This document shows positions 4,622 through 32,347 of a DNA stretch of 32,347 bases, in pieces. Positions within the stretch are counted from its first letter, which is position 1; each line of letters opens with the position of its first letter. The notes below the pieces were generated by a model that ran no database searches, was not told the origin of the DNA, and was given only the letters and a program-made list of their open reading frames with translations. The DNA comes from Bacteriovorax sp. (GTDB taxonomy: Bacteria > Bdellovibrionota > Bacteriovoracia > Bacteriovoracales > Bacteriovoracaceae): positions 1 through 32,347 of the forward strand of contig JACMPM010000041.1 in the NCBI GenBank assembly GCA_014377485.1. Reading direction: 5' to 3'. The position numbers and the translations under genes were made by a program.

Positions 4622-4758
4622 AAAAAAATTCCTTTCCTTAAGATCTATTTCTAACAAATACTTACAATCTGTAAAATTGGTCTTGGTCAACATTATTTTA
4701 ATTCAATTTTAAATAAAAAATGCTAGGTTCCGGCAATCACTTCTACGCAGGAGATCTC

Positions 4759-6268: not shown

Positions 6269-6399
6269 GCTGTGCAAACCTAAAATCCATCTTCCAATTC
6301 CCCTCCCTAGTAAGTATTAGTCAGAAATATCCTATAGACCTCAACACTAAGTCAGCATGATAATTGGGAATTACCAAAAACGGTGTCCAGGAGTCAGTG

Positions 6400-7800: not shown

Positions 7801-7828
7801 GGCCAGCTTTTATGCTGGCCTTTTTTTT
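7801..7828. terminator. Terminator between convergent genes
   Basis: GGCCAGC and GCTGGCC (7801-7807 and 7814-7820) form a perfect seven-base-pair stem followed by eight T residues on the plus strand. The loop contains the stop codon of the minus-strand P450 gene (7810-7812), so the P450 coding region ends inside the terminator of its convergent neighbour. On the minus strand A and T residues also follow, so it may act in both directions. Confidence 0.9.
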
Positions 7829-12847: not shown

Positions 12848-12849
12848 AT

Positions 12850-13698: not shown

Positions 13699-15134
13699 AA
13701 ATTCACTTTTTTAAAGGTTCTAGGTCGATCAATTCTGGCGCGGTGTCTTTTATCTCTAAATATTTTTGAATAAAATATTTTTTTTAGTGGTGGCAGTTCA
13801 CTTGTCTCTATTTTTTCTTTTAAACTAGGATTTGCTATCAAAAAATATTCTTTATTTTGAATGAATACCATTGCCTCTGAAGATTCAAGAATTGTATAAA
13901 TTTTTTGCTCAAGGAGAAATTCTTCAAGACTTTGAAATTCTCTCCCTTGATACCATAGGTGACCGTCTTGTTTTAGAACTCTGTCGCCCATATTGTGCCA
14001 AATATTATTAAAGGCATCTTCTTTTTTATTTTTATTGTTGGCCTCATCATCATGAAGATATTTTTTTGAAACATGGCGACCTGTTATCCAAAGTTGACTT
14101 GGCGTCAATTCAATATTAATTTCAGGAACTTCATTACCGAGATAGAGGCATTGAAAATATCCTTTCTCGCGAGATTTCATGACAGCTATTTTGGCGTCAC
14201 TGACAGCTACTGGTTCCGCTTCAGAACTTCCATAAACATGGTCAAAATGAGCATCTGGCCAATGCTTAAATGCATCCTCAAGTAGATTGCAGTCAGATAG
14301 GGCACCGCCAATATGAAATGATTTTAAATGCTCACACTTAGATGAATTCAAAAGAATTTTTAAAAATGCAGGGCCACAAGCGATTGTATCAACCCTGTGC
14401 TCTTCATCCAGGTCATTTAATTGCTCTAAAACTTTTTTAGGCCATGAAGAAGGTATGATAAGACTTCCTTTATCGGCGGTAAGATTTGCAAGGACTAAAT
14501 TGGTAAATATGGTGAGATCCATTTTTGGATAATTTTCGTAGTTTAAGTATTTAAGAACAACTTCATTGGCATCATTTAGATATTGGTGAGTTCTAACAAC
14601 ACCTTTTGGTCTTCCACTGGTACCGCTGGTAAAAGTGAGCATTGCTTCTGTATTGGGATCAACTTTTGTTATTTCTATTTTATTGTTAGATTTAGTATTA
14701 TGTTTATTTTTTTTACAAATTTGATCACTTGATACTTTGTATTTTATCTGACGTATGGCACTTGAACGCATTCCCCAAAACCGACCTATTTTTTTTGAGA
14801 CAAAAACCTTGGGCCTGCAATTATTAATCAACTCGTTTATATGCTCGACTGAAAGCCATGGTTCAACTAATAAAATTTTTTGTCCTGATGCCATTATGGC
14901 CAGAATGGTGGCATAAAGTTTTACTGAGGGCTCTTCGAATAATAGAACATAATCCCCAATTTCTAAATTATATTTTTTTAGCGATTGTTGGGCATTAATG
15001 GACAGATCAATAAGCCCACCGAAAGTGATAGATTTATCAGGATGATTTAAACTTTTTAACCCGTCAAAAAAGACAATTGCTTTTTTTCCAGGGTCGTGAA
15101 CTTTGGAATAGAATTTTTCACATGCATTTATCAT
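13695..15134 (-). CDS. AMP-forming acyl ligase (ANL superfamily), first gene of minus operon
   Basis: A 479-residue adenylate-forming enzyme. The ATP-binding P-loop is LTFTSGTSGRPKGVVRTH, about residues 167-184. The adenine/acyl-binding motif is VYGSSEAEPVA, and MGDR is present before the hinge. The C-terminal domain is short and lacks a clear catalytic Lys motif, ending KRHRARIDRPRTFKKV. It is shorter than typical acyl-CoA synthetases (about 550) and resembles OleC-like and related AMP-binding proteins from lipid clusters. It would activate a carboxylic acid, probably a fatty acid, for transfer. It heads five overlapping or nearly touching minus-strand genes, and its promoter should lie in 15135-15330. 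Confidence 0.88.
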   Translation of the reverse strand: MINACEKFYSKVHDPGKKAIVFFDGLKSLNHPDKSITFGGLIDLSINAQQSLKKYNLEIGDYVLLFEEPSVKLYATILAIMASGQKILLVEPWLSVEHINELINNCRPKVFVSKKIGRFWGMRSSAIRQIKYKVSSDQICKKNKHNTKSNNKIEITKVDPNTEAMLTFTSGTSGRPKGVVRTHQYLNDANEVVLKYLNYENYPKMDLTIFTNLVLANLTADKGSLIIPSSWPKKVLEQLNDLDEEHRVDTIACGPAFLKILLNSSKCEHLKSFHIGGALSDCNLLEDAFKHWPDAHFDHVYGSSEAEPVAVSDAKIAVMKSREKGYFQCLYLGNEVPEINIELTPSQLWITGRHVSKKYLHDDEANNKNKKEDAFNNIWHNMGDRVLKQDGHLWYQGREFQSLEEFLLEQKIYTILESSEAMVFIQNKEYFLIANPSLKEKIETSELPPLKKIFYSKIFRDKRHRARIDRPRTFKKVNL

Positions 15135-15332: not shown

Positions 15333-16292
15333 ATGCAAAACATCTCTGTCTATCTTAATCAGAGGGCCTCGAATGGGGTCAATGACTGGCAAGGACAAAT
15401 CAATAATGCCTTATTCAGAAGTAATGTTGAATACCAAACACCTAATAATTTAGAGGAGCTTTATCGCCAGCTCGAACTTGATGTTGAAAATAAGGTCGAT
15501 GCTGTTTTATCTGTTGGAGGAGACGGCACTGTAAATACAATTATTCAAAGGTTAGCTGGCACTGATATTAGTCTTTTGGTTGTACCCGGTGGAACAGCCA
15601 ATGACTTTGCCCGTGTTCTGGGAACTAATTCAAATATTAAAAGAATAACTCAAACTATTCGTCATAATGTAAAAAAGAAAATAGACCTGATCAGTATTAA
15701 CGGAAAATATATGGCCACTAACGGCGGTTTAGGATTTGCTGCTGATGTTGCTGACGAAATTAATAATTTAAGAAAGAGCTTTCCAAAGTTTAAAAATTTT
15801 ATGAAATTTTCTGGAAAAAATGTTTACTCGATCTTTTTGGCAAAAAAATTATTGAATAGAGAAATTAAAACTTATAAATTTAGAATATCATCTGCAGAAT
15901 ATTCTGAAACAGTGCTTTCACCGCTCATATTGATCAACAATCAACCGGCATTGGGAGGGGATTTTACAGTTGCTCCCAATACTAACAACCAAGATGGAAC
16001 TATTAATATTACAATATTCAAACACCTAAATCGTCTAGAACTTATTCAATGTATTTTTAAAATTTTGAATGGCAATTATCCTAAAAATGATAAAAATTTA
16101 GTTAGCTTTGAGACCTCTTCAGTTAAAATTGATTTGATCGATGATGAAAATATTGTATTTTTTGGAGATGGTGAAATCTTAGATAAGGCCATTAGCTGGG
16201 ATATAAAATGTCACCCAAGTTTTCTTTCAGTTTTTTCACCAAAAGATCAAAATGATATGATAAATCTTTGCACGAAAGTATCGTTAATGTAA
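15333..16292 (+). CDS. Diacylglycerol kinase-like lipid kinase
   Basis: A 319-residue kinase of the DAGK/sphingosine-kinase catalytic family, which phosphorylates the hydroxyl of a lipid with ATP. The nucleotide-binding motif SVGGDGTVN is at about residues 66-74, followed by the family signature VPGGTANDFAR. The C-terminal lobe holds ALGGDFTVAPNTNNQDG and FFGDGE, matching conserved parts of YegS/DgkB proteins. Length is normal. An AAGGA site precedes the ATG at 15333. It heads a plus-strand operon divergent from the five-gene minus operon. In this setting the likely substrate is diacylglycerol or a related alcohol made by the neighbours, which is an inference. Confidence 0.92.
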   Translation: MQNISVYLNQRASNGVNDWQGQINNALFRSNVEYQTPNNLEELYRQLELDVENKVDAVLSVGGDGTVNTIIQRLAGTDISLLVVPGGTANDFARVLGTNSNIKRITQTIRHNVKKKIDLISINGKYMATNGGLGFAADVADEINNLRKSFPKFKNFMKFSGKNVYSIFLAKKLLNREIKTYKFRISSAEYSETVLSPLILINNQPALGGDFTVAPNTNNQDGTINITIFKHLNRLELIQCIFKILNGNYPKNDKNLVSFETSSVKIDLIDDENIVFFGDGEILDKAISWDIKCHPSFLSVFSPKDQNDMINLCTKVSLM

Positions 16293-16361
16293 TGTCTGGA
16301 TAATGAGGAAAAAAAATATTTGGAAAGTTTCCATTTTTTTGTCAAAGGATTAATCGGTCTT

Positions 16362-17366
16362 ATGAATATTTTTATTACAGGTGCAACAGGCTTTTTAGGA
16401 CAATATCTCATTAGAGAGTTGAGTCCTAATTTTGAGACAATTTATATTCTCTCTCGCAATTCTCAATTTACAGGATTTAATGATCTTCCCAATGTGAAAA
16501 TTGTAAAAGGAGATATTACTCAATTAGAAATAATAGAAGATATAATGATGCGCGACCTTATTCTTGAAGAAAGCGATTTCGTCATTCATGCTGCAGCCTT
16601 ATACGATTTAAAAGCAAGTCACTCCGATTGTTATTTGCAAAATATTGTAGGGACTCAAAATACACTTCGGCTAGTAAAAAAAATGAAAAAACTTAAGGCC
16701 CTGTATTATATCTCTACAATTGCAGTGGGTGATGATCAATCCTTTTTCCTGGAAGAGGATCATCTTCCAGTTAGAAAAAAGTTTAATGATTTTTATTCGG
16801 AAACTAAGTATTTTGCTGAAAAGATTGTTCGAGAGACGCAACACAATGGAGCTACTAGGATCATTCGCCCCGGCATCATAATTGGAGATTCTAAAACTGG
16901 AAAAATGGATAAGATAGACGGTCCTTATTATTTTATAGAGGCAATGAAAAAATATTCAACGTTTTTAAAGTCGATTCCATTCATTCCGCTCAGTTTTAAT
17001 CCTCGAACAAAAATTCCAATAATTCCAGTTGATCATTGTGCTCGGTATATTTCACTACTGATCGGCCGCGATTTAGGAGTTCCAGAATTAAAAACTTACC
17101 ATTTAATTAGCAATGAAGTTCCTACCGTCAAACAATTTTTGGACGACTTGAATGAAGCCTTTAGCATTAAAACTCAATATATCCCAGTCTTCAAAAATCC
17201 TGTGCATAATTCTGTCCTGAAACTGTTGGGTATTCCTAAAGAACTTGTTCCATTCATGTTTTCAAAACTCTCATACGATAAGACACGTACAATAGAGGAG
17301 TTACCAGAGATGCAAGAAAGTACCTACAGTGCTTTTAAAGGTATTCTCTTTTTGAAAACTCTCTAA
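16362..17366 (+). CDS. NAD(P)-dependent SDR reductase/epimerase family protein
   Basis: A 334-residue extended short-chain dehydrogenase. The N-terminal Rossmann loop is TGATGFLG, directly after the chosen start (MNIFITGATGF). The active-site YxxxK is YSETK. RPGIIIGDSKTGKMDKIDGPYY is a block I associate with NAD-binding-4 or 'male sterility' type reductases acting on acyl or alcohol groups. A longer TTG-initiated frame from 16320 is possible because GAGGAAA lies before it, while the chosen ATG has AAGGA 12 bases away, which is a long spacing. It follows the lipid kinase and precedes the AAR-like gene by 23 bases, so the genes likely form one operon. Reduction of a fatty aldehyde or ketone is plausible but unproven. 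Confidence 0.85.
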   Translation: MNIFITGATGFLGQYLIRELSPNFETIYILSRNSQFTGFNDLPNVKIVKGDITQLEIIEDIMMRDLILEESDFVIHAAALYDLKASHSDCYLQNIVGTQNTLRLVKKMKKLKALYYISTIAVGDDQSFFLEEDHLPVRKKFNDFYSETKYFAEKIVRETQHNGATRIIRPGIIIGDSKTGKMDKIDGPYYFIEAMKKYSTFLKSIPFIPLSFNPRTKIPIIPVDHCARYISLLIGRDLGVPELKTYHLISNEVPTVKQFLDDLNEAFSIKTQYIPVFKNPVHNSVLKLLGIPKELVPFMFSKLSYDKTRTIEELPEMQESTYSAFKGILFLKTL

Positions 17367-17389
17367 AAATTTCAACAAGTATAGAGTGT

Positions 17390-19438
17390 ATGAAACATAT
17401 CCTTTCTTTGGCCTTCGCCCAAGATCAATATAATTTTGATGAAGAAATTGAATTCTTTGGTGAGACCTATCGTATTACTCAATACTCAACTAATTTTGAT
17501 GTTGAACTAACAGAAAATATTATTAAAAAATATGATGGTCTTTGCGATGTAATCTGCATCTCAGGACTTCCACACAAGATTAAATTTAAAAAAGGTTTTT
17601 TCCTCCATCCAGATGCTTATCGAATTAAGGTCGCAGCTAAATTTACACCAACAGTAGATGGACAAATAATTAAAGATGTTTATATACCATATGCCTTACG
17701 TCTCTTTTATTTGAAAAATAAAAATTTTCTTTCTAAAAGAAAAATAGGATTTTATTCTGCAGCACTTCAAAAAAGTTTCGTAGAAGTTTTGGAAGATTTA
17801 GAAAATGATTTGGTTATGGCCGATCCATATTTTCTGACAAAGATGCCTTTTAATCTTCATAGTAGCAAAGGGCTAGATCAATATTTAAAAGCTCTCTCAC
17901 CTGTATTGAAAAGAATGAAGATTAAAAAAAGTAATGTTCCATCCTTCTCTGAAGATAATCGTAAGATGAATCGAGCGTTAGATGAATTTCTTTCTTGTGA
18001 TATTTTAGTAGGGAATGAAGCCAATATAACATTTTTAAATTTATCACATTTAAAAGGTAAAACTTTAATTATCGATATTGTTTCAGAAGGTCTAGAAGAA
18101 AAACTTAAAAATGCAGGTCTGAAGGAAGCTTTAATTTGCCTTCCACAGCTCTCAAGTTATACCAAAATTAATTACTCAATCCTAGAAGGCATTGTCCAGT
18201 TAAAAAAAGGAGCAGGGGGACTTGTAAGTGACGACGATATCATAAAATTAGTCAATGATTTAAAGCTTGAGCCTCAAATTAAAACTTTTAATGAAGATAA
18301 CGATAAAGTCGCAACTTTTTCATTTGTTATCCATCCCCTTAGTTCACGATTTTTATTAATGCATCCTTTCTTTAAACATATCAACAAAAAGTTTACCTCG
18401 ATTTTTGAATCAAGTATTGAAGAAGTAATGTCTTTCTCACCAGGCTTTTACTATGGAAAAATTGACGGAATTATCAGTGAAAAAAATGGAAAAAAAGTAG
18501 AAGGTTTAATTTATGCTGTTACTGAAACTCCAAAAAAATTAATGGAAAAAGAAGCTGATGTTATTTATAAAAAAATATTAAAGCTTTGTGATAAAGCACA
18601 CCTTGCTGGCTCGAAGATTATGGGATTGGGTGCATATACCAAGATTGTTGGGGATGCTGGTGTCACGATCGATAGACTTAGTCCAATACCAGTAACTACA
18701 GGAAACTCTTTGTCATCCGCCTCAACCTTATGGGCAGCTAAGCTTGCAGTTGAAAAATTGGGCTTTGTAAAAAAAGTTGATAATAAATTCTTAGGCTCGG
18801 TTATGATTGTGGGTGCAACTGGAAGTATTGGAGCTGTTTCAGCAAAAATTTTATCCCTCACATGGCGTGAAATAATTCTAGTAGCACCTCGTGCCTATAA
18901 GCTTATTGAGTTAAAAGAAGATATTCTTAAAATTAATCCTTTAGCGAATATCATTATTTCTACAGATGCTGATGCCCACTCTTTTGAATCTGACTTAATC
19001 ATCACCACCACTTCCGGGCAAGGCAAAACAGTTCTAGATATTATGAAAGTTAAACCAGGCTGTGTGATTTGTGATGTTTCGAGGCCTTTTGATATAAGCG
19101 AAAAAGAGGCAATCAGAAGACCTGATGTTTTAGTTATTGCCAGTGGTGAAGTTCAACTGCCAGGAAAAGACTTGAATATTAATATAGATTTAGGATTGGA
19201 AGGTAATATTGTCTATGCTTGCTTAGCAGAAACGGCTTTGTTAGCAATGGAAGGAAAATTTGAATCATTTACTCTTTCTCGCAATATTAATTATGAAAAA
19301 GTTATTGAGATAGATAAATTAGCACAAGAACATGGAGTGCGTTTATCGCATATCATGGGACATAATGGTTTTATTTCAGATGAAGAATTTAGCTTATGCC
19401 AAGAGCATGCAATTAAAAAATTAAATGAGAAAAAGTAA
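17390..19438 (+). CDS. Acyl-ACP reductase (AAR)-like protein with extra N-terminal half
   Basis: A 682-residue protein. Residues about 405-670 align by eye with cyanobacterial long-chain acyl-ACP reductase, which makes fatty aldehyde. The shared blocks are GAYTKIVGDAG, TTGNSLSSASTLWAAKLAVEKLG, the nucleotide loop GATGSIG (475-481), and VYACLAETALLAMEGKF. In that last block Cys611 sits where the reductase has its acyl-thioester Cys (ACFAEAMLLEFEG). HGVRLSHI also matches. Residues 1-330 have no counterpart in the roughly 340-residue cyanobacterial enzyme, and I do not recognise them. They include GFYSAALQKSF, VMADPYFLTKMPF and CDILVGNEANITFL. The stop overlaps the BtaA-like start by one base. 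Aldehyde formation is inferred. No aldehyde-deformylating oxygenase is seen nearby. Confidence 0.78.
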   Translation: MKHILSLAFAQDQYNFDEEIEFFGETYRITQYSTNFDVELTENIIKKYDGLCDVICISGLPHKIKFKKGFFLHPDAYRIKVAAKFTPTVDGQIIKDVYIPYALRLFYLKNKNFLSKRKIGFYSAALQKSFVEVLEDLENDLVMADPYFLTKMPFNLHSSKGLDQYLKALSPVLKRMKIKKSNVPSFSEDNRKMNRALDEFLSCDILVGNEANITFLNLSHLKGKTLIIDIVSEGLEEKLKNAGLKEALICLPQLSSYTKINYSILEGIVQLKKGAGGLVSDDDIIKLVNDLKLEPQIKTFNEDNDKVATFSFVIHPLSSRFLLMHPFFKHINKKFTSIFESSIEEVMSFSPGFYYGKIDGIISEKNGKKVEGLIYAVTETPKKLMEKEADVIYKKILKLCDKAHLAGSKIMGLGAYTKIVGDAGVTIDRLSPIPVTTGNSLSSASTLWAAKLAVEKLGFVKKVDNKFLGSVMIVGATGSIGAVSAKILSLTWREIILVAPRAYKLIELKEDILKINPLANIIISTDADAHSFESDLIITTTSGQGKTVLDIMKVKPGCVICDVSRPFDISEKEAIRRPDVLVIASGEVQLPGKDLNINIDLGLEGNIVYACLAETALLAMEGKFESFTLSRNINYEKVIEIDKLAQEHGVRLSHIMGHNGFISDEEFSLCQEHAIKKLNEKK

Positions 19439-20523
19439 TGGCACAAAAATATTTTACTGGATTAAATTATACTTTAGGAAATGAAGACACAAGCGTAGAG
19501 ATAGAACTGGTTAAACAGTTAAGGCCTAAATCTATTTTTTCAGTTTGTGGTAGCGGAGGAAGAGCTTTGCCTTTATGTGGAGAGGCAATTGATCTGACGT
19601 TGTCCGATTTGTCTCTTGAGCAAATCCACCTGGCCATGTTAAGAGAGGCAACTTATAAGCAATTATCTCATCAGGATTTTTTATTATTTTGGGGGTATTT
19701 TCCTTTTTCAGATAATAATTTTTGCGATTCCAGGAAAAATTTTTTTTTAAAGTTAGAAATCTCATCTGAGGTTCGTAATTATTTTCAAAATATATTTGAT
19801 GAAATTCAATTCACATCATTGTTGTATTTAGGTAAATGGGAGCGCACATTCCAAGTTCTCGCTAAAATTAATAGAGCACTCTTGGGACGTGACTTTGATC
19901 GCATTTTACGTTTTGACGATTTGAATGCCCAAAAAAAATATTATCAAAATGAATTTCCCCATTACAGATGGAAGGCCGTCATTTTTTTACTCGGCAATAA
20001 AGCTCTTTTTAATGCACTTTTATACAAGGGGGATTTTATAGAAAAGAATTCACCTGAATCTCATTTTGATTATTATTATAATGCCTTTGATCGCTTATTT
20101 ACTCAGGACATTGCTCAAAAAAGTTTTTTCCTACAGTTATGCTTTTATGGGAAAATTAATTCAATAGCGGGAGTTCCTGTTGAAGCAAGTCTGGAGACTC
20201 ACCAAAGAATTTCCGGATCTCATACCAAGACTCATTATTTAAATGAGGATTTAATCACTCATTTAAAAAGTGGCAATAAGACTTATGACTTTCTATCTCT
20301 GAGTGATGTACCTTCTTATTTTAGAGGGGAGCTTGAAGAGAATTTCATGCAGAATATACGTCCTGGACTTAGACCGGGGGCCATTATTGTCAATCGATAC
20401 TATCTTAGGAAGGCCAATTGCAATTTATCTGGATTCGAAGACATTACTAAAGATCATAAGGACTTAATCGCCTCTGAGAAGGTTCAAATGTACGATATTT
20501 GCATATATCGTTATGAACCCTAA
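19438..20523 (+). CDS. DUF3419/BtaA-like aminocarboxypropyltransferase
   Basis: A 361-residue protein of the DUF3419 family, whose characterised member BtaA moves the 3-amino-3-carboxypropyl group of S-adenosylmethionine to diacylglycerol in betaine-lipid synthesis. The N-terminal YFTGLNYTLGNEDTSVE is the family's opening block. SVCGSGGRALPLC is the SAM-binding loop, SDLSLEQIHLAMLREA takes the place of the usual DLNPAQ segment, and QDFLLFWGY follows. The end (FLSLSDVPSYF and LRPGAIIVNRYYLRK) is methyltransferase-like, as expected. It overlaps the AAR-like gene by one base. No BtaB-like methyltransferase is adjacent, although other methyltransferases occur at 21.8-24.6 kb. A BtaA-type reaction is plausible, but the acceptor could differ. 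Confidence 0.82.
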   Translation: MAQKYFTGLNYTLGNEDTSVEIELVKQLRPKSIFSVCGSGGRALPLCGEAIDLTLSDLSLEQIHLAMLREATYKQLSHQDFLLFWGYFPFSDNNFCDSRKNFFLKLEISSEVRNYFQNIFDEIQFTSLLYLGKWERTFQVLAKINRALLGRDFDRILRFDDLNAQKKYYQNEFPHYRWKAVIFLLGNKALFNALLYKGDFIEKNSPESHFDYYYNAFDRLFTQDIAQKSFFLQLCFYGKINSIAGVPVEASLETHQRISGSHTKTHYLNEDLITHLKSGNKTYDFLSLSDVPSYFRGELEENFMQNIRPGLRPGAIIVNRYYLRKANCNLSGFEDITKDHKDLIASEKVQMYDICIYRYEP

Positions 20524-20800: not shown

Positions 20801-21745
20801 CTAACTATAAATCCAGTAATACGTTAAGTAGAAAAAAACTAAATTAGAAAATATCAAAGAATCCATCCGATCAAGAATCCCGCCATGTCCTGGAATTAAA
20901 TCTCCCATATCCTTTATCTTCAAATCTCTTTTGATCGCTGAAATATTTAAGTCTCCAAAAAATCCGGCAATTGCAATTAGCATTGAAAGCAGCATTACCT
21001 GGAGAGTTGTTAGTGGCAAAAGATTTCTAAAAACATATCCAAACATGACTGAACCCAAAACACCTCCAATTAATCCTGCCCAGGTTTTATTGGGTGAAAT
21101 AAGTGGAGAAATTTTTCTTTTCCCAAATAATTTGCCAGAAACAAATTGTGCAACGTCGTTAAGCTGAGTAATAACGATCAAAAAGAAAATCATGCCAGGG
21201 GAACCTTCCTTAAGGGATTCAACATTGGGTAGAGAGGCAATATAAGAGATATGAGAAAGAGAGAAAACGGTCAGCATTAATGCCCAGTGAAGCTGGCTGA
21301 AGGTTTTGATGCTCTCTTTGCTTAAATCTTCCAAAATTGATCTAAATGGCAGCAGGACAAGCATTCCCACCGGAATAAAGGTGAGGAAGGCAATAAAGAA
21401 TTTTGAGTAAGCAAAATAGTATTGAATGGGAATTGCGATATAAGCAATAAGAAGTGTTTTGCGATGACTAGTATTAAAATTGAGTTTACTGGTTAGTTCT
21501 CTAAATGAAATGAGAGAGATCAAGGCCATCATGAAAAAGAGAACTTCTCTCTTTGTCCCAATCATAATCAGCACAATAATAAAAATAATCCACCAGGAAT
21601 TTACCCTTTGTTTTAAAACATGAAGAAATTCTCGTGGCCAAAAATAGTCCCATCCATAAAATAGAAGAGTAAAAAACATGATTAAAGAAAATATTGTTAT
21701 AATAGAAATTTGAGTTTGTTCACCGATTGCTAGTAATGAGAGCAT
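20801..21745 (-). CDS. ynbB: YnbB-like phosphatidate cytidylyltransferase (CdsA family)
   Basis: A 314-residue polytopic membrane enzyme that should make a CDP-activated lipid (CDP-diacylglycerol or similar) from CTP and a phosphatidic acid. The CdsA signature is complete near the C-terminus: SAIKRDLKIKDMGDLIPGHGGILDRMDS. Before it, NDVAQFVSGKLFGKRKISPLISPNKTWAGLIGG matches E. coli YnbB closely as I recall it, better than it matches CdsA. I chose the ATG at 21745 because GAGGAA precedes it; the longer frame to 21796 lacks a ribosome site. It is divergent from the ynbC homologue, with 69 bases between the starts. In E. coli the equivalent genes lie together in ynbABCD, whose product is not established. 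Confidence 0.92.
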   Translation of the reverse strand: MLSLLAIGEQTQISIITIFSLIMFFTLLFYGWDYFWPREFLHVLKQRVNSWWIIFIIVLIMIGTKREVLFFMMALISLISFRELTSKLNFNTSHRKTLLIAYIAIPIQYYFAYSKFFIAFLTFIPVGMLVLLPFRSILEDLSKESIKTFSQLHWALMLTVFSLSHISYIASLPNVESLKEGSPGMIFFLIVITQLNDVAQFVSGKLFGKRKISPLISPNKTWAGLIGGVLGSVMFGYVFRNLLPLTTLQVMLLSMLIAIAGFFGDLNISAIKRDLKIKDMGDLIPGHGGILDRMDSLIFSNLVFFYLTYYWIYS

Positions 21746-21814
21746 AAAATATTCCTCAATTTTCTGTATTTTTAGTCGATTAGTCTTCAAAGACAATTAT
21801 ATGCGGAGAATTCT

Positions 21815-23566
21815 ATGAATAAAAGAGAAGAAAAAAAATCTACTTTTTCAACCTTTGATGGTGAAAAATTAGTTTATCGTTCGTGGTCACCAACTAAAGA
21901 GTTCATAGGTGAAAAGAAGGCCTTAATCGTTATCCACAGAGGACATGAACATTCGGGAAGACTTATTGATTTAATCAATGGGGTGGAAGAACCTGAGTTT
22001 TGGGCCTTTGGATACGACTCACGTGGACACGGAGAGTCTCATGGACCAAGAGGATATGCTCCAAGTTTTTCTCATATCGTGAAAGACCTGGATACTTTTG
22101 TTAATTTTATTTCAAAAGAATACCAGATTAAAATCGAAAATATTTTTGTTATCGCCAATAGCGTTGGAGCGGTTGTCACGAGTGCATGGGTTCACGACTA
22201 TGCTCCAAAGATTCGCGGAATGGCCTTGGCCGCACCAGCTTTTGAAATTAAACTCTATGTTCCAGGTGCATTAGCTGGTTGTAGACTATTAGATGCTGTT
22301 AAACATCCCGCTTATATTTCAAGTTATGTTAAATCTAAATTTTTAACTCATGATCCAGCTGAGCAAAAAAAATACGATGAAGACAAATTGATTACACCTC
22401 AAATTGCTGTCAATATCCTTGTTGGACTTCATGATACCTCTGAGCGAGTTGTAAAAGATGCTGGTGCCATCCACACGCCGGCGATTGTTTTTTCTGCAGG
22501 AAGTGACTGGGTAGTAAGCAATAAACCTCAAAAGAAGTTTTTTGATAGTTTAAGTTCAAAGTCTAAAGAATATATTGTGCTTGATGGATTTTATCATGGA
22601 GTTTTGTATGAAAAAGACAAAAAAATTCCACTAGATCATATTCATCGTTTTATAGACAAATGTTTTGCAACGAATGCAATAGCTGTGGATATGGTTCGCG
22701 CTGATCTTGAAGGTTATACTTTCAACGAGTATAAATCAATTCAAGCAGGAGATGTTAGTTTTGTTAATAAAATTAATTACGCCATTCAAGTTCTCTCGAT
22801 GAAAACTTTGGGGAAACTATCAGTTGGTATTCGCATTGGTTATAAATATGGATTTGACTCGGGGATTTCCCTCGATCATGTTTATAAAAATAAGGCCCGC
22901 GGCGACTTGGTCCTTGGTAAAATTATCGACTTTTTCTATATCAATGCAGTTGGATGGAAAGGGATTAGAACTCGTAGAGTTCATATGAGAGAGTCTCTTG
23001 ATTTTTGTATTGATTCATTAATCAAGCAAGGCAAACCAGTTCGTATTATGGATATTGGTTCTGGACCTGGGCGCTATTTATTAGAGACAGCAAAAAAATA
23101 TGAAAAGAGCGATGTGAAAGTTTTATTGCGTGATTACTCTGAGAGCAATATTAACGAAGCACGTGAAATTGCCAAACAAATTGGATGCACAAATGCTGAC
23201 TTTAAAGTAGCAGATGCTTTTGAGCCTAAAACTTATAGTGAGCAAGAATTCAAACCCAATATTCTGATTGTCTCAGGTCTTTTTGAATTGTTTCCAAGCA
23301 ATGAAACTGTATTAAAAGCAGTCGTTGGAGCAACCTCTATTCTGGATCCTGAAAGCTATATCGTTTACACCGGTCAGCCATGGCATCCTCAATTAGAGAT
23401 GATTGCGCATACTCTTCCAAACCGTGAAGGAGTGAACTGGGTTATGAGGAGAAGAACTCAATTGGAAATAGATCAGTTATTTGCCAAACATGGTGCAAAT
23501 AAACTGGAAATGAAGATTGACCAGTGGGGAATTTTCACTGTTGCAACAGCTAAGTACACGAGATAA
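21815..23566 (+). CDS. ynbC: YnbC-like alpha/beta hydrolase-methyltransferase fusion
   Basis: A 583-residue two-domain protein. Residues 1-280 form an alpha/beta hydrolase with monoacylglycerol-lipase-like blocks (HRGHEHSGRL, DSRGHGESHGPRGY). Ser116 sits in ANSVGA, where the usual first Gly of GxSxG is Ala. A linker leads to a class I methyltransferase domain, about 400-583, with SAM-binding motif MDIGSGPGRYL near 413-424. GQPWHPQLEMIA, WVMRRRTQ and DQWGIFTVA agree closely with E. coli YnbC (585 residues) as I remember it. The fused pair suggests deacylation or hydrolysis followed by methylation of a lipid head group. GGAGA precedes the ATG. Five bases separate it from the next methyltransferase gene. 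Confidence 0.93.
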   Translation: MNKREEKKSTFSTFDGEKLVYRSWSPTKEFIGEKKALIVIHRGHEHSGRLIDLINGVEEPEFWAFGYDSRGHGESHGPRGYAPSFSHIVKDLDTFVNFISKEYQIKIENIFVIANSVGAVVTSAWVHDYAPKIRGMALAAPAFEIKLYVPGALAGCRLLDAVKHPAYISSYVKSKFLTHDPAEQKKYDEDKLITPQIAVNILVGLHDTSERVVKDAGAIHTPAIVFSAGSDWVVSNKPQKKFFDSLSSKSKEYIVLDGFYHGVLYEKDKKIPLDHIHRFIDKCFATNAIAVDMVRADLEGYTFNEYKSIQAGDVSFVNKINYAIQVLSMKTLGKLSVGIRIGYKYGFDSGISLDHVYKNKARGDLVLGKIIDFFYINAVGWKGIRTRRVHMRESLDFCIDSLIKQGKPVRIMDIGSGPGRYLLETAKKYEKSDVKVLLRDYSESNINEAREIAKQIGCTNADFKVADAFEPKTYSEQEFKPNILIVSGLFELFPSNETVLKAVVGATSILDPESYIVYTGQPWHPQLEMIAHTLPNREGVNWVMRRRTQLEIDQLFAKHGANKLEMKIDQWGIFTVATAKYTR

Positions 23567-23571
23567 TTTTT

Positions 23572-24570
23572 ATGCAAAATAAAAAATATAAAGATTTGGA
23601 AGTGTATTTTGATCTAATGTTGTCAAATGGCGCTTCTTCACTTTACCGAATTGTAGAAGAGATGGAAATTCTCAATTCTTACACACTAGGTGAAAAATTT
23701 AGTGCTGATGAATTGGCTGCTAAACATCAGTTTAAACTATTACCCACAAAAGTTTTGCTTGATACTTTAATGACATTAGGACTGGTGGAGAAAGCTGGCG
23801 ATTCTTATGTCATTTCAAATGTCATGAACCTTTTAAAAGGAAATTATCAAAATCTAAGTTCTGAGTACTGGGCCCATCTTCCAACGTTATTAAAATCTGG
23901 AACGCCATTCAAACGAATGGATACCGTTGAAAACAGCGAAAAAGAATATCAGGTTCAAGTTAAATCTCTTGAATGGATGATGACTCCTTGTGCGGAATTA
24001 ACGGTAGAGCTGATTTCAAAATTGCATTCAGAAACAAACATTAAAGAAGGTGCAATCAATGTTTTAGATGTTGGTGCTGGTTCCGGTGTTTGGGGATTTA
24101 ATTTTTTATATGCTAACCCTAAAGCAACTTGTACTTTGGCCGATTGGCCGGCCGTTTTGGTCGTTGCCAAGGAAACGTCAAAAAGAAATAAAATAGATTC
24201 TCGAGTAAGTTATATCGAAGGAAACTTCCATCAATCTAATTTTGGTGAACCTCGCTTTGATTATGCTACACTTGGAAATGTCACTCATATCCAAACTCCT
24301 GAAGAAAATCATAGAATCTTCAAAAAGATTTACGATGCTCTTCTTCCTGGAGGCAGACTCATCATCCTTGATGCTTACGGGAAAGTGGAAGAAGGTGCTC
24401 TGGCCCGTTCTTTGTACCAAATGGGCCTGACTATCAGAACGGTTCAGGGAAAAGTCTATCAACCTAGTGAGCTTCAACCATGGCTTAGTGAAGTTGGTTT
24501 TAAAACGTTTGAATTTCATTCACTTGATGTTGTTCCTTACTCAATGGGAATGCTGATTGCAAAAAAATAA
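23572..24570 (+). CDS. SAM-dependent methyltransferase with N-terminal winged helix
   Basis: A 332-residue methyltransferase of the O-methyltransferase type (hydroxyneurosporene or acetylserotonin methyltransferase-like). Residues 1-90 look like the dimerising winged-helix domain (FSADELAAKHQFKLLPTKVLLDTLMTLGLVEK). The SAM loop is LDVGAGSGVWG at about 165-175, followed by ADWPAV and the post-motif region GNVTHIQTPEENHRIFKKIY and LLPGGRLIILDAY. Small-molecule O- or C-methylation is expected. It lies five bases after ynbC, and its stop touches the ATG of the next gene. No equivalent is present in E. coli ynbABCD, so this is an added function. The substrate is unknown. Confidence 0.9.
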   Translation: MQNKKYKDLEVYFDLMLSNGASSLYRIVEEMEILNSYTLGEKFSADELAAKHQFKLLPTKVLLDTLMTLGLVEKAGDSYVISNVMNLLKGNYQNLSSEYWAHLPTLLKSGTPFKRMDTVENSEKEYQVQVKSLEWMMTPCAELTVELISKLHSETNIKEGAINVLDVGAGSGVWGFNFLYANPKATCTLADWPAVLVVAKETSKRNKIDSRVSYIEGNFHQSNFGEPRFDYATLGNVTHIQTPEENHRIFKKIYDALLPGGRLIILDAYGKVEEGALARSLYQMGLTIRTVQGKVYQPSELQPWLSEVGFKTFEFHSLDVVPYSMGMLIAKK

Positions 24571-24939
24571 ATGAAAGCAATGGAGTCTCAAACAATTCCG
24601 ATTCTCTTGATTTTAGTTGCGGCCTTCATAGGTGCATGTGCTCAATATTTTTTTAAATTAGGTTCGCTTAAAATTGTGGAAATTCCCATTTATAAAAATT
24701 GGTTTTTCCTTGCAGGTCTCGTTTCATTTTTTTGGGTCTTGGTTTTGATTACACTTTCGTTTCGTTTTGGTGGGCTAATGATGGTTGTCTATCCTGTTTA
24801 CGGAACAACTTATATCTGGGCATTGCTAATTTCTCATTATTACGAAAAATCTCCGGTCAATTATTTTCAGGTCTCGGGAATAGCATTTATCATGCTAGGA
24901 ATAAGTCTGGTCTCTTTTCAGAAAGCTAGTTTTAATTAG
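24571..24939 (+). CDS. Small DMT/SMR-type membrane protein
   Basis: A 122-residue protein with four hydrophobic helices, the size of small multidrug-resistance and ArnE/F-like subunits. The first helix (IPILLILVAAFIGACAQYFFKLGSLK) carries the AQ-x-x-x-K-x-G region typical of the EamA/DMT fold, and the last helix ends VSGIAFIMLGISLVSFQ. The Glu14 characteristic of EmrE-type drug pumps is not evident in helix one. A lipid or lipid-intermediate flippase role, as for ArnE/F, therefore fits the context better than drug export, but that is inference. Translation starts immediately after the methyltransferase stop. It is the last gene of the ynbC operon. Confidence 0.8.
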   Translation: MKAMESQTIPILLILVAAFIGACAQYFFKLGSLKIVEIPIYKNWFFLAGLVSFFWVLVLITLSFRFGGLMMVVYPVYGTTYIWALLISHYYEKSPVNYFQVSGIAFIMLGISLVSFQKASFN

Positions 24940-25157
24940 CCTTATAAACGTTTCTTATTAACCGAATCAACAATACCACTTTTCTGTCTCCCGGTCTTGC
25001 TCAGTACATGCATTGACAGCCTAGAAGAACCAGAGAGCATTCTTTATTTTTTTACAAGTTTGATGCTGATCCTAAATTGTCCTAGCGAAAGTAGGAATGT
25101 GTTAGAGAAGTCCAAGTAAAAGGATAATTTTCATTTTAATTTTCTCATTTTTTAAAA
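24940..25157. other. Convergent intergenic gap of 218 bases
   Basis: It lies between the small transporter (plus) and the ynbA homologue (minus). A five-pair hairpin (TCCTA, GCGAAAG, TAGGA at 25080-25096) and AT-rich sequence are present, but nothing convincing as a gene, RNA or terminator. Confidence 0.5.
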
Positions 25158-25745
25158 TTAATATAAAGATTTTCTAACTCTATTGAATATTGTGGCCAAG
25201 AGTAAAAGTGAAACTACAGATAAGAGCACCGTGTACAGAGTCTCGTTGATAACTCCAAAGCTAATTAAAAGGGCAATAATTGAAAAGACAAAGGCCCTGT
25301 CACTTTTGCCCATGGGTCCGGCATATTGTCTTGGACTTCCATTAAGGAGCACAGCAAGTCCAGTTATCTCTGTCACTGCTGAAAAAAAGATTATAAAAAA
25401 TAAAAGTTTTTGATTAATAAAAAAAAATCTACCAAAGGAAAAATAGAGAAATCCGTCTGAAACCACATCTGTCACTTCATTTAAAATGGCGCCCATTGGA
25501 GATTTTAAGTTATGTTCTTTGGCCAACATGCCATCAATTGCATTTAAGGCCATACGAAAAAAGAAAAAGAGCGGCAGAATATAAAACATTTCATTTTGTG
25601 AATAAAAAAGCCAAAGTCCAGTCGCCACAGACAACAAACAAGTTCCTAAAGTTATCTGATTAGGAGTAATACCCATTTTCCATAGAACACTAACACACGG
25701 ACGTAACATATTTTGAAATTTAGGTTTTAAATTGTAAATGGTCAA
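25158..25745 (-). CDS. ynbA: YnbA-like CDP-alcohol phosphotransferase
   Basis: A 195-residue membrane enzyme that should move a phosphoalcohol between a CDP-lipid and an alcohol. The CDP-alcohol motif is atypical: NAIDGMLAK, then G-AIL-N-EVT-D. The first and third Asp of the usual DxxDGxxAR...GxxxDxxxD are Asn and the Arg is Lys. E. coli YnbA, as I recall it, has Asn at the same two positions, so the Asn changes appear to belong to the subfamily. Other matches are MTIYNLKPKFQ, LRP at the N-terminus and YAGPMGKSDRA. The acyltransferase gene upstream overlaps it by four bases. In E. coli ynbA heads ynbABCD; here it is separated from ynbB and ynbC and on another strand from ynbC. Confidence 0.93.
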   Translation of the reverse strand: MTIYNLKPKFQNMLRPCVSVLWKMGITPNQITLGTCLLSVATGLWLFYSQNEMFYILPLFFFFRMALNAIDGMLAKEHNLKSPMGAILNEVTDVVSDGFLYFSFGRFFFINQKLLFFIIFFSAVTEITGLAVLLNGSPRQYAGPMGKSDRAFVFSIIALLISFGVINETLYTVLLSVVSLLLLATIFNRVRKSLY

Positions 25746-26410
25746 ATTGTATCCTTTGATGCCGAAGTCGCTGGAAATTTTTGGTTCACTGAAAAATTAC
25801 TCATTGCCTGAATTTGAGATCCGCTGCTTATATTTGTCCCTGGCCCCATTTTGGTAAAAGCACCAACAAAAGTGTAGCTTCCTATTTTTATTTTTCTTAC
25901 GTAGACAAAAAAATTTCCATTTTTTACTCTCAAAAGATGTGAAGACATATAAGTGTTGTGACCGAAAATCACAAAATCTCCGACTTCCATTAAGCCTCGA
26001 TCGTTCACCACTGTTCCAGGTGTCCAAAAAACACTCTTCCCAATTTGACTTCCCCAGGCCCGAAGCCATGCACTATAGAGACCCGGAAGAAAAAATAGGA
26101 GCCTTTCCAGTTGAGGAAATACCAGGTAGATCTGTTGAATCCGGAGGGAGAATAACCAAGGTGAAAAGGATTTTTCAGCAAGACCTATATAATTACCGCC
26201 TTCTTTAAGTGGGTAGATGCCCAGAACGATTCGTTGAATGAAAAGCGGAAGCAAATAGGGAACAATACAAAATAAAACAAAGAATATTAAGCATTTGGTT
26301 AGAACGAATTGAGCAAATAAAAAAAGCATGAGTGAAAAAAATATTAATGGAAAAAAATGCTGTAAGCGTTTAAACAAAAAATTTAATATATCATCTTTAT
26401 ATATAGTCAT
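25742..26410 (-). CDS. Hexapeptide-repeat acyltransferase with N-terminal membrane part
   Basis: A 222-residue protein. The first 75 residues hold two hydrophobic stretches (FPLIFFSLMLFLFAQFVL, then LIFFVLFCIVPYLLPLFI). The rest shows left-handed beta-helix turns: IGKSVFWTPGTVV, MEVGDFVIFGHNTYMSS, IKIGSYTFVGAFTKMGPGTNI. HNTYMSSH could supply a catalytic His. I chose the ATG at 26410 because the longer frame (to 26503) would run into the divergent P450 gene. No strong ribosome site is seen, which leaves the start uncertain. It overlaps ynbA by four bases and so belongs to the same lipid operon. Transfer of an acyl or acetyl group to a lipid or sugar is inferred. Confidence 0.78.
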   Translation of the reverse strand: MTIYKDDILNFLFKRLQHFFPLIFFSLMLFLFAQFVLTKCLIFFVLFCIVPYLLPLFIQRIVLGIYPLKEGGNYIGLAEKSFSPWLFSLRIQQIYLVFPQLERLLFFLPGLYSAWLRAWGSQIGKSVFWTPGTVVNDRGLMEVGDFVIFGHNTYMSSHLLRVKNGNFFVYVRKIKIGSYTFVGAFTKMGPGTNISSGSQIQAMSNFSVNQKFPATSASKDTI

Positions 26411-28680: not shown

Positions 28681-31600
28681 ATGAAAAATTCACTTATTCT
28701 TTTTATGCTTCTGCCATTTCTAATATTTGTTGGATGCTCCAAAAAAGGAGTTACGCCTGCAAAATTTAAATTAAATATTGCTGGCATGACGGGCACAGTA
28801 AACGGCATTGCGATTAGTGATGGAATTCTTTATGGAAAATCTGATAAAGGGGATTATTTCGGGCATGTGATCAGTTCAACAAGTGAATCATTTACTATGC
28901 CAAATGGTAATTGGACTTTCCAAGCTTTCATTTGGGACGCAGCTGTTAACAATACTCTTTCTGGCGCAACAGCGATGAATGGTAACGTTTATTGTGGATC
29001 TTCAACGGCCGCACTTTCCGGTGCCGACGTAAATCTTTCATTGAATTTAACAAATGCCAATTGTACTAATGGTGCTTTTGCAGCTGCCGGAAGAACATAT
29101 ACAGATACCCAAACAATTCCGCAAAAAAGATTTGCAGAATTATTTTTCGAAGAGTGTGACGAACTAATGGCCGTTCCTGGATTTACTTGTGGCCTTAATC
29201 ACCAAGGAAGTGCGCTTTCCTATAAAGTCGTATTTAACGAATTCAGTTCAGGATTTGCTTCTGGAACCGGTGCCATTGAGTCGGCATGTTTGGTTGTAGG
29301 CACGACAACAGGTAAAATGTTTGATTCGAGCAGCCATGGTTTACCAGTGAATTTTCCAAGCGGTAATGGATTTTCAGTAAACGTTAAGATGTATTTAAGT
29401 AATGATTGTGACGTTGGTGATCCCACTGGCCCTAAAGGCGTTCACGTGGCTCATTTTCCTGGCGGTTTAGGAGTTCAAAATGGACCTAATGATGTTATGA
29501 TTGCCTCAGTCAACAGCTGTCCTCATCTTTTTGCAACCGTTACACCTATGCAAAATTTAGCATGTCTAGATGTGCTGGGTACAATTTCTACAGATTGTAT
29601 TTCTAATCAACCTATCATCAATCGTTTTAGTTCAAGTTGTTTAAGTGGTTTAACTGCGGCTACGACTTCCTTAAAACATTTGGTATCAATTCCAACGCCA
29701 AATTTATGTTCTAAATATATTAACTCTTCAACAACAATCGGTGCTCATCCATTTGCTGGTGGTGATGGAACTAACTTGCGTCCATATAAAATTTGTACAG
29801 AATGGCAGCTTAATCAAATAGGTGAGTATAATGCACCCTCTAACTATGAAACTTCTTCATATAAATTAATGAACGATCTCGATATGAATAAAGCAGATTT
29901 TTTAGGCCCTTATCCAAAACCTTTTTGTGTTGGTGTCGCTAACTCTTTGGTTAAGGATCATCATAATTTAAATTCGTTGGATAAAATTGCTGAAAACTCT
30001 TCATGCACTACATTTGAAACAACAAATTTAGGATTCTCTGGAACATTTAATGGTAACGATAAAACAATTCGTAATGGAAGAATTTCAGCTAAATCTGCTT
30101 CAGGACTTGGCCTTGTTCGATATCTCAATGGTGGAACCATTAAAAATCTCAGCTTCAATAATTTGGAAGTTGGAGGACGCGATCATGTTGGGGGCATTGC
30201 CGGTAACGCTGCCCCAGCTACTTTTAATCCAAGGATTGAAAATATCTTTATCGATAATTTAAATCTGGAAGCTGAGAGCAATGGAGGCACTTATGGTGAC
30301 TTTGTTGGCGGGATTGCAGGTCGTATGAATGGTACTCCTGCAACTGCCTTGATCAATAATGTACATATCAACCATGGTCATGTTCGCGCACGTGATGCAG
30401 CTGGGGGTCTGGTAGGCGATAATTTGGGAACTATTAATAATTCTCATTTTAGTGGAGTCGTAAAAACTGACCAAAATGTTGGAACTAATATTGGTGGTCT
30501 TGTTGGTTCTAATAATGCTGGCGCAATAACTAATTCTTATTCTGAAGGACTTATAAATGCTTCAACCTCATATATTGGCGGTATAGCTGGTTATAATTCG
30601 GGAACAGTAACGAGTGTATATTCAACTATGGCCATTTTGTCTCACTGGAGTAGCGTTGGAGCAAGTGTTGGCGGGATTGTCGCCAATAATAGTGGTGGTG
30701 GAACACTTACGGATGTTTATTTTGATGGATCTATAAAACATAATGGTGGTAGTTCTCCTGTTTTAAACGGTGTTATTGCGCAAGGAACCGGTGTTTCTTT
30801 ATGCTACAGCTCTTATTCTCCAGCGAGTACCTGTACGTCAAACTATACGGCCTTGAGAGATGGTGCTAGAAGCTTTACGACACCAGCAGCATGGTCTCAA
30901 ACTTCTGGATCAGTGCCTCGTCTGGCGTGGGAAATTCGTGCATGTCTTTTATCTGCCAATCAATTAGGTGTCTCTGCACAAGTATCAGCAGGAAGAGGAA
31001 CAACTAGTGCCGACCCGATTATTATTTGTAATCAATTTCAACTCAGTTCTGTAACAGGCAGACCATCAACTGAATTTTATCGAATGGCCGAAGATATTAA
31101 TATTTCTAATTGGACGGATGCTAACTTGATCACGACTTTTAATGGTGATTTTAACGGTGCAGGAAATGTTCTTTATGGTGCAAATTTGACAATGGTTTCC
31201 GATCCTAATCAATATGAAGGACTATTTAGAACAGTCGCTAGTTCTGGGAAAATTAAAAATCTAAAAGTTTATAGCAATGCAATTATGAATATAGCTGATA
31301 TCGATGACACAGGTACGGGAATGCTTATTGGCTTAAATCAGGGAACCGCAAACAATATTGAATTCTACGGAACGAATGTTTCAGGTGGTGATGATATTGG
31401 AACGGTTGCCGGAAGTAATTCAGGCACTATTTCGGATATAAAAATTGAAGAAGGAAGTGTCATAGGTAATCATGCCGTCGGTGGTGTCGCAGGCTTTACG
31501 AGCAGCACTAGTGTAATTTCTAAAATCGATATACAGACTAATGTTTCAAATATTTCTTCTGGAAACTTCGAATGGTTTGGAGGGATTGTCGGAAATAATA

Positions 31601-32347
31601 ATGGGCAAATTGATCAGGCCTCTTTTGGTGGTCAAATGACTACCTCGCCTTCAACTTCGGCTGGAGCACTTCATATCGGTGGAATCGCCGGGATCAATGC
31701 TGGACTTATAACCAATACCTATACTGATAATTATTCTTCAATCACCGTTAAAGATACTCAAAAAATTGGTGGTCTTATTGGAGAAAATATTTCAGGTGGG
31801 AATATAAATCGATCCTTTGCTCTTGGAAAATTGATTTATAATAACGGGGGAGCTGCAACTGTTGCTCAACCATTTCATTCTCTAGTCGGAGCTAACTCCG
31901 GTATCATTGGTGGCGACGTCTTCTATTTAGAAAATAATATTGGCTCACTCCTTGGGTCAACTTCAACGACTGCACCTTGTGTTGGTGGATCAGCGTGTCC
32001 TCTCTTGGCCAGTACTCCGTCTGGTAACTTATTTGGTCTTACTTATGGTGGTGGCGGTAATGGTTTGAGTACTCTTATTCCGATGACCCCAACGGCCTTT
32101 AGCATGACATATACAGGAGCTACCACATTATCAAGTAGTACCAATATTAATTACTATCAAAGCTATACAATAACGCCTTCAACAGGCCTTAGAACGGCAG
32201 CTCAGTTTGGGACGCTAGCATCTTTTTGCTCTAGTTGGTCTGGAAGCTTAGGAAATGAAGTCTGTATCAACGGTTATGATATTGCGGGCATGGATTTAAC
32301 TGTTCCTTCTGATGACCGTGGTGGAAATCGTCTTCTTGGCTATTATC
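28681..32347 (+). CDS. Giant lipoprotein with GLUG-like repeats, 3' end outside the window
   Basis: The frame is open from the ATG at 28681 to the last base, giving at least 1,222 codons. The N-terminus is a lipoprotein signal (MKNSLILFMLLPFLIFVGC, then SKKG), with lipid attachment expected at Cys19. AAGGA precedes the start. From about residue 360 onward there are many GLUG-type repeats (VGGIAGN, GGLVGSNNAG, IGGIAGYNSGTV, VGGVAGF, IGGLIGEN). They sit in two larger modules, each introduced by an ICxxxQL segment (IKICTEWQLNQIG-like and IIICNQFQLSS-like). Such repeats form a long beta-solenoid, as in surface adhesins. The N-terminal 350 residues are Cys-rich and of unknown fold. A role in attachment is inferred. 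Confidence 0.88.
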   Translation, partial: MKNSLILFMLLPFLIFVGCSKKGVTPAKFKLNIAGMTGTVNGIAISDGILYGKSDKGDYFGHVISSTSESFTMPNGNWTFQAFIWDAAVNNTLSGATAMNGNVYCGSSTAALSGADVNLSLNLTNANCTNGAFAAAGRTYTDTQTIPQKRFAELFFEECDELMAVPGFTCGLNHQGSALSYKVVFNEFSSGFASGTGAIESACLVVGTTTGKMFDSSSHGLPVNFPSGNGFSVNVKMYLSNDCDVGDPTGPKGVHVAHFPGGLGVQNGPNDVMIASVNSCPHLFATVTPMQNLACLDVLGTISTDCISNQPIINRFSSSCLSGLTAATTSLKHLVSIPTPNLCSKYINSSTTIGAHPFAGGDGTNLRPYKICTEWQLNQIGEYNAPSNYETSSYKLMNDLDMNKADFLGPYPKPFCVGVANSLVKDHHNLNSLDKIAENSSCTTFETTNLGFSGTFNGNDKTIRNGRISAKSASGLGLVRYLNGGTIKNLSFNNLEVGGRDHVGGIAGNAAPATFNPRIENIFIDNLNLEAESNGGTYGDFVGGIAGRMNGTPATALINNVHINHGHVRARDAAGGLVGDNLGTINNSHFSGVVKTDQNVGTNIGGLVGSNNAGAITNSYSEGLINASTSYIGGIAGYNSGTVTSVYSTMAILSHWSSVGASVGGIVANNSGGGTLTDVYFDGSIKHNGGSSPVLNGVIAQGTGVSLCYSSYSPASTCTSNYTALRDGARSFTTPAAWSQTSGSVPRLAWEIRACLLSANQLGVSAQVSAGRGTTSADPIIICNQFQLSSVTGRPSTEFYRMAEDINISNWTDANLITTFNGDFNGAGNVLYGANLTMVSDPNQYEGLFRTVASSGKIKNLKVYSNAIMNIADIDDTGTGMLIGLNQGTANNIEFYGTNVSGGDDIGTVAGSNSGTISDIKIEEGSVIGNHAVGGVAGFTSSTSVISKIDIQTNVSNISSGNFEWFGGIVGNNNGQIDQASFGGQMTTSPSTSAGALHIGGIAGINAGLITNTYTDNYSSITVKDTQKIGGLIGENISGGNINRSFALGKLIYNNGGAATVAQPFHSLVGANSGIIGGDVFYLENNIGSLLGSTSTTAPCVGGSACPLLASTPSGNLFGLTYGGGGNGLSTLIPMTPTAFSMTYTGATTLSSSTNINYYQSYTITPSTGLRTAAQFGTLASFCSSWSGSLGNEVCINGYDIAGMDLTVPSDDRGGNRLLGYY

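Follow-up and report, generated by a model that had tools for sequence, protein, structure and literature searches.

The window analysed here, a stretch of 32,347 nucleotides, is an entire contig (C128) of a 3.95-Mb Bacteriovorax-like MAG, which is a draft assembly. Analysis of its ORFs places six genes between positions 20801 and 26410, organised in three transcription units (Table 1). ynbB is read leftward, ynbC, a methyltransferase gene and a small DMT gene are read rightward, and a hexapeptide-like gene followed by ynbA is again read leftward. Five of the six genes have family support, the exception being the hexapeptide-like gene, whose matches lie below the curated cut-offs. YnbC is 92% identical to its counterpart in the nearest named relative, a Bacteriovorax sp. 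MAG. The start codon of ynbA is a TTG that overlaps the stop of the preceding gene, while ynbB likely starts at the ATG at 21745 rather than at the TTG at 21796. Promoter-consensus matches in the region between ynbB and ynbC are no more numerous than in shuffled sequence, and a scan for promoters and terminators gave no excess over shuffles.

Table 1. Features of the Ynb block and its immediate neighbour.
Feature	Position	Strand	Evidence or remark
YnbB, CTP-dependent cytidylyltransferase, CdsA paralogue, 314 aa	20801-21745	-	CTP_transf_1, E 2e-62
Divergent ynbB/ynbC intergenic region, 69 bp	21746-21814	.	
YnbC, monoacylglycerol-lipase-like hydrolase fused to SAM methyltransferase	21815-23566	+	Hydrolase_4, E 2e-62; Methyltransf_20, E 5e-100
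O-methyltransferase-type SAM methyltransferase, 332 aa	23572-24570	+	Methyltransf_2, E 4e-14
Small DMT/EamA-half membrane protein, candidate lipid flippase	24571-24939	+	DMT_YdcZ, 26.9 bits (cut-off 24)
YnbA, CDP-alcohol phosphotransferase fold, 195 aa	25158-25745	-	CDP-OH_P_transf
Variant CDP-AP motif of YnbA, N68xxD71G..A75K..G85xxxN89E90xxD93xxxD97	25455-25544	-	
Membrane protein with left-handed-beta-helix-like C-terminus, possible hexapeptide acyltransferase	25742-26410	-	Weak sub-cut-off NCBIfam matches
Cytochrome P450	26454-27788	+	Just beyond the 20801-26410 block

An earlier note on this DNA had recognised homologues of YnbA, YnbB and YnbC in the locus, and both Pfam families and BLAST against E. 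coli proteins confirm all three. Its description of genes lying on different strands agrees with the three transcription units, and the locus does lack a YnbD-like phosphatase; a 440-aa Campylobacterota YnbD query is unmatched genome-wide too. The note also called the locus split, an arrangement that is not special. Divergent or dispersed layouts are likewise seen in Rhizobium, Shinella, Burkholderia and other Bacteriovoracaceae, the divergent ynbB/ynbC arrangement is common to several related loci (L007, L028 and L030-L035), and a split locus is ordinary within the family. Searches with PHROGs and PADLOC for a phage or defence link returned only generic esterase and methyltransferase matches.

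YnbA of the window shares 44% identity over 196 aa with E. coli YnbA, and BLAST against the E. coli proteins gave no match to PgsA. The structure model (pLDDT 90) is an all-helical membrane fold like that of PIPS or AF2299, with PIP synthases as the best PDB structures (TM up to 0.78). HMM alignment and this confident model together place the protein on the CDP-AP motif frame. The canonical motif of class I CDP-alcohol phosphotransferases is DxxDGxxAR...GxxxDxxxD (PMC8633023). In M. tuberculosis PgsA1, a PIP synthase whose residue numbering coincides with that of the window YnbA, two metals are bound by D68, D71, D89 and D93, the last of which presumably acts as the base; R94 is essential and critical for inositol phosphate (PMC6506517).

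YnbA departs from the four-Asp motif and reads NxxDGxxA...GxxxNExxD. Positions 68 and 89, which correspond to the first and third Asp of the motif, are Asn in 29/29 YnbA sequences, and position 90, beside the second Asn, is Glu in 29/29. Asp is present at positions 71, 93 and 97 throughout the same set (29/29), and a GPxxKSDR segment is invariant. The five canonical enzymes used for comparison, taken from this genome and from E. coli, all have Asp at both 68 and 89 (5/5). Since D1 and D3 bind metal in characterised enzymes, the two Asn could point to another reaction. Position 94 is never basic (V, I, Y or W across the 29 sequences), so that YnbA lacks the Arg or Lys that would mark a PIP synthase, and the loss of R94 weakens the case for inositol phosphate as the acceptor. 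Because E90 is acidic and a base is missing at 94, a neutral or cationic acceptor would be likelier than inositol phosphate, a weak indication read from the motif. The actinobacterial PIP synthases (MtPgsA1, RsPIPS and MkPIPS) share the fold of YnbA and give its best PDB sequence match; relative to them, YnbA has Asn for D1 and D3, Glu for A90, and no counterpart of the R94 that holds inositol phosphate. A lone YnbA with a decayed motif, NAIGG, occurs in one genome (G250, L127:7239-7844), with neither YnbB nor YnbC nearby.

Window YnbB scores 174 bits against E. coli YnbB vs 100 bits against CdsA, and the match to CdsA is confined to ~124 C-terminal residues. The catalytic motif of this C-terminal half (SPxKT / GD / KR...GHGGxxDRxDS) is intact and common to CdsA, whereas the N-terminal half differs. 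In a 50-protein tree the housekeeping CdsA proteins form a supported clade (95/89), and the window YnbB sits outside it with other Ynb-locus proteins; one CdsA row (G530) that fell outside the CdsA clade is probably a misread frame and is to be disregarded. The earlier note had made its reading depend on this comparison with PgsA and CdsA: by BLAST, both YnbA and YnbB are nearer to their Ynb namesakes, as is YnbB by tree. Separate housekeeping copies of CdsA (C6) and PgsA (C115) are encoded elsewhere in the genome, and E. coli YnbB is unable to replace CdsA (PMC6362211).

YnbC is 41% identical to E. coli YnbC over 581 aa. It comprises a hydrolase domain (about residues 1-287) and a Methyltransf_20 domain (about 276-580). 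The hydrolase triad S116/D231/H261 is invariant, as are D413/G417/D440, and the SAM-binding motif of the second half is intact. The hydrolase half matches MGL structures (Z 31.9 to mtbMGL); in a structure search aimed at the methyltransferase half, matches to the hydrolase half fill the list, which makes it uninformative. One weak phenotype is on record: a transposon insertion in ynbC was one of five that raised polyphosphate and altered LtrA localisation in a single strain background, but Keio deletions did not reproduce the effect (PMC2435150).

Compared as a whole with E. coli ynbABCD (b1408-b1411), the window has orthologous proteins with 41-44% identity for A and C and 37% for B, and the E. 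coli proteins carry the same invariant residues. The window differs in lacking YnbD, in having genes on both strands, and in the additional methyltransferase, DMT, hexapeptide-like and P450 genes.

To assess the co-inheritance of A, B and C claimed by the earlier note, we surveyed 589 genomes from two phyla, 291 of Bdellovibrionota and 298 of Campylobacterota. A YnbA profile separates YnbA (118 to 300 bits) from the next family (103 bits or less). Methyltransf_20 at full strength, the mark of YnbC, is found in 11/291 Bdellovibrionota and 10/298 Campylobacterota genomes, and YnbA is present in 20/21 of these. In Bdellovibrionota, YnbA occurs in 11/11 genomes with YnbC vs 2/280 others (Fisher 3e-18, uncorrected for kinship); the corresponding figures for Campylobacterota are 9/10 vs 1/288 (Fisher 2e-15, likewise uncorrected for kinship). 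The three genomes with YnbA and without YnbC comprise one decayed copy and two copies at or near contig edges. All three genes are present on three separate contigs in G161, and in G291 ynbC lies on a contig apart from ynbA and ynbB; the association between YnbA and YnbC thus does not rest on linkage alone. Plasmids, or entries of plasmid collections, from alpha-, beta- and gamma-proteobacteria, Fusobacterium and a cyanobacterium also carry the set. The survey and the neighbourhood comparison bear out co-inheritance over a large distance, and since the genes co-occur even where they are unlinked, a single pathway formed by YnbA, YnbB and YnbC is well supported.

The YnbA profile also revealed a sister family in which positions 68 and 89 are Asn in 19/20 readable sequences, which rules out that the Asn pair is unique to YnbA. 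A YnbB-like gene adjoins the sister CDP-alcohol phosphotransferase in 21/21 loci (L094-L110 and L121-L124, from Bdellovibrionota and Campylobacterota). These cassettes often contain a PlsC-type gene, and a relative of the small DMT gene is present in five of the 21. In contrast to YnbA, most sister transferases retain R94, and no YnbC was found within the 1.5-kb flanks examined. An Asn-type transferase thus accompanies a YnbB-type CTP enzyme whether or not YnbC is there. Two transferases stand in tandem in at least two genomes with sister cassettes (G261 and G148), and in G130 also by profile search.

The most widespread extra partner of the Ynb genes is a PlsC-type lysophospholipid acyltransferase (PF01553) whose NHxSHxD and PEGxR residues are invariant. 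It stands beside YnbABC in most loci, with 17 occurrences among the compared loci, and is present in alpha, beta, gamma and cyanobacterial loci as well. It was found neither near the window nor in the rest of the draft assembly, where the best match reaches 44 bits vs 253-281 in five relatives. An assembly gap is possible; in the strain of one related locus (L007) the PlsC-type gene lies on another contig. The ynb operon of E. coli K-12 lacks the gene, whereas a version of the set on E. coli plasmids has it. This second set (A, B, PlsC type and C; L075:6833-10755) is located near a colicin M gene, is found at full length in just 3/5426 E. coli genomes, and has a YnbA whose C-terminus aligns poorly. 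A Pseudanabaena plasmid carries YnbA, YnbB, a PlsC-type gene and only the methyltransferase half of YnbC (L078:7848-8792), adjoining nif genes.

YnbD combines a PAP2 and a dual-specificity phosphatase and is likely a lipid-phosphate phosphatase in other phyla. In many Campylobacterota, Rhizobiaceae, Burkholderia and E. coli its gene comes after ynbC, but no full-length YnbD was found in ten Bdellovibrionota genomes or in the draft genome of the window. In every locus of the Bacteriovoracaceae family an OMT-type methyltransferase gene follows ynbC, usually together with the small DMT gene, relatives of which are present in most family loci. The earlier note had listed a methyltransferase, an SMR-like protein and a hexapeptide acyltransferase as interleaved additions to an expanded locus. 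The methyltransferase and the small membrane protein are indeed there and recur in most family loci; the SMR label is not sustained, as DMT_YdcZ alone reached threshold and Pfam SMR (PF00893) did not. The protein encoded next to YnbA gave no Pfam hexapeptide or LbH match, and its NCBIfam matches are weak and below the cut-offs. Its gene stands beside ynbA in L007, L030 and L031 and is cut by the contig end in L032, and a P450 gene is a neighbour in five related loci (the window, L007, L030, L031 and L032); each of the two is found in about half of the family loci, and the word expanded fits mainly the methyltransferase and DMT genes. An MMPL exporter gene adjoins YnbA in some relatives. In two Bdellovibrionota outside the Bacteriovoracaceae, a SnoaL-like gene and a PEMT/ICMT-type phospholipid methyltransferase gene come right after YnbC (L036:10005-11083 and L037:761-1845), the PEMT-type call being a Pfam match in L036 and an alike ORF in L037.

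Beyond the observed family memberships, motif states and co-occurrence, we propose that the Ynb genes encode a dedicated, optional phospholipid pathway that runs parallel to housekeeping phospholipid synthesis, a reading to which we give a probability of about 0.6. We infer the order of its steps, the roles of the accessory genes, the catalysis by YnbA and the nature of the head group. A PlsC-type acyltransferase, not found in this assembly, would make phosphatidic acid, which YnbB would activate with CTP to a CDP-lipid. With its altered metal site, where D1 and D3 are Asn, YnbA would then pass the phosphatidyl group on to an acceptor alcohol that is not inositol phosphate. YnbC would methylate the product with SAM, while its lipase-like half may remove or check an acyl group, as trimming or proofreading. 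In Bacteriovoracaceae the second methyltransferase and the small DMT protein might stand in for YnbD; the former would methylate a second time, and the DMT protein may flip the lipid; some relatives would add an MMPL exporter. The occurrence of YnbD in other phyla would be better fitted by a phosphorylated acceptor, contrary to the neutral or cationic one considered above. That the added genes disclose the head-group chemistry, as the earlier note hinted, is conjecture. Against the proposal stand the absence of the hydrolase half from one cyanobacterial locus and the failure to find a PlsC-type gene or YnbD in the genome of the window. We put forward more tentatively, as a proposition that may well prove wrong, that YnbA and its sister family are a distinct class of CDP-alcohol phosphotransferases with an Asn-substituted metal site and a dedicated YnbB-type partner, which would make a CDP-lipid unlike CDP-diacylglycerol; bacteria of many phyla, most E. 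coli among them, would then produce a membrane lipid that has yet to be described.

Other explanations account for parts of these data. The resemblance of the YnbC hydrolase half to monoacylglycerol lipases, its nearest relatives, and the ability that PlsC-type acyltransferases could have to reacylate lysolipids would suit a role in lipid remodelling or turnover, where YnbC deacylates with one half and caps the head group with its methyltransferase while A, B and the PlsC-type enzyme rebuild ordinary phospholipids. Such a cycle needs no dedicated CTP transferase and phosphotransferase with sequence signatures of their own, and the cyanobacterial locus without the hydrolase half also speaks against it; we regard it as unlikely. 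YnbA might not be a phosphatidyl transferase at all but a scaffold, or an enzyme such as a hydrolase with a different nucleotide lipid as its substrate, given that two of the four Asp that bind both metals in M. tuberculosis PgsA1 (PMC6506517) are Asn in YnbA. However, the invariance of N68, N89, E90, D93, D97 and GPxxKSDR points to an active site that has changed and not decayed, and the sole decayed copy found (L091) stands without B or C, which leaves this explanation with a rather low likelihood.

A link with the E. coli glycolipid MPIase is suggested by the rise in MPIase on over-production of YnbB, and the Ynb genes could then be a backup route to MPIase or a similar pyrophosphoryl glycolipid. 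In that study (PMC6362211) MPIase did not change when ynbB was deleted, and the conserved gene set is without sugar-handling genes, which makes this route improbable. The proteins belong to the same Pfam families as PgsA and CdsA, but chance adjacency of ordinary housekeeping homologues has next to no likelihood left: BLAST, tree and motif set them apart and rule out a PgsA/CdsA identity, and the housekeeping copies lie elsewhere in the genome.

The Ynb genes are already known as uncharacterised families, and 4242/5426 complete E. coli genomes carry at least 80% of ynbABCD. The open-access library searched yielded no work on the enzymology of YnbA or YnbC. As far as these tools show, three things are new: the Asn-type motif, the fact that it pairs with YnbB-type enzymes, and the PlsC-type partner. 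If the dedicated pathway makes a new phospholipid, the best-studied bacterium would contain a lipid that has escaped notice. In a family thought to need four aspartates, the replacement of two by Asn poses a precise and testable question of catalysis, and the larger gene sets, with PlsC-type, PEMT-type, MMPL and DMT genes, tell what to co-express in order to see the product.

Several other gene groups surround the Ynb block. At 15333-20523 (+) a lipid kinase, a thioester/fatty-acyl-reductase-like SDR, a 682-aa acyl-ACP-reductase/PigE-like protein and a DUF3419 (BtaA-like) protein are encoded in a row. This row recurs in L007 and L030 but not in L031, and so probably forms a lipid module of its own next to the Ynb genes. 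Genes for a P450, a GNAT-like protein, a 911-aa PEP-synthase-like protein, a UbiA-like prenyltransferase and an AMP-forming ligase lie on one strand at 7810-15134 (-), in what looks like a biosynthetic cluster; relatives of its GNAT, UbiA and ligase genes also adjoin the Ynb block in L007. Two similar-looking protease pairs, trypsin-like and subtilase-like by eye, are located at 1-792 and 2645-3538 and at 4720-6147 and 6364-7773, possibly as duplications in a predatory lineage. At the other end of the window, a large lipoprotein gene (28681-32346, +) with many GLUG-like repeats by eye runs off the contig end.
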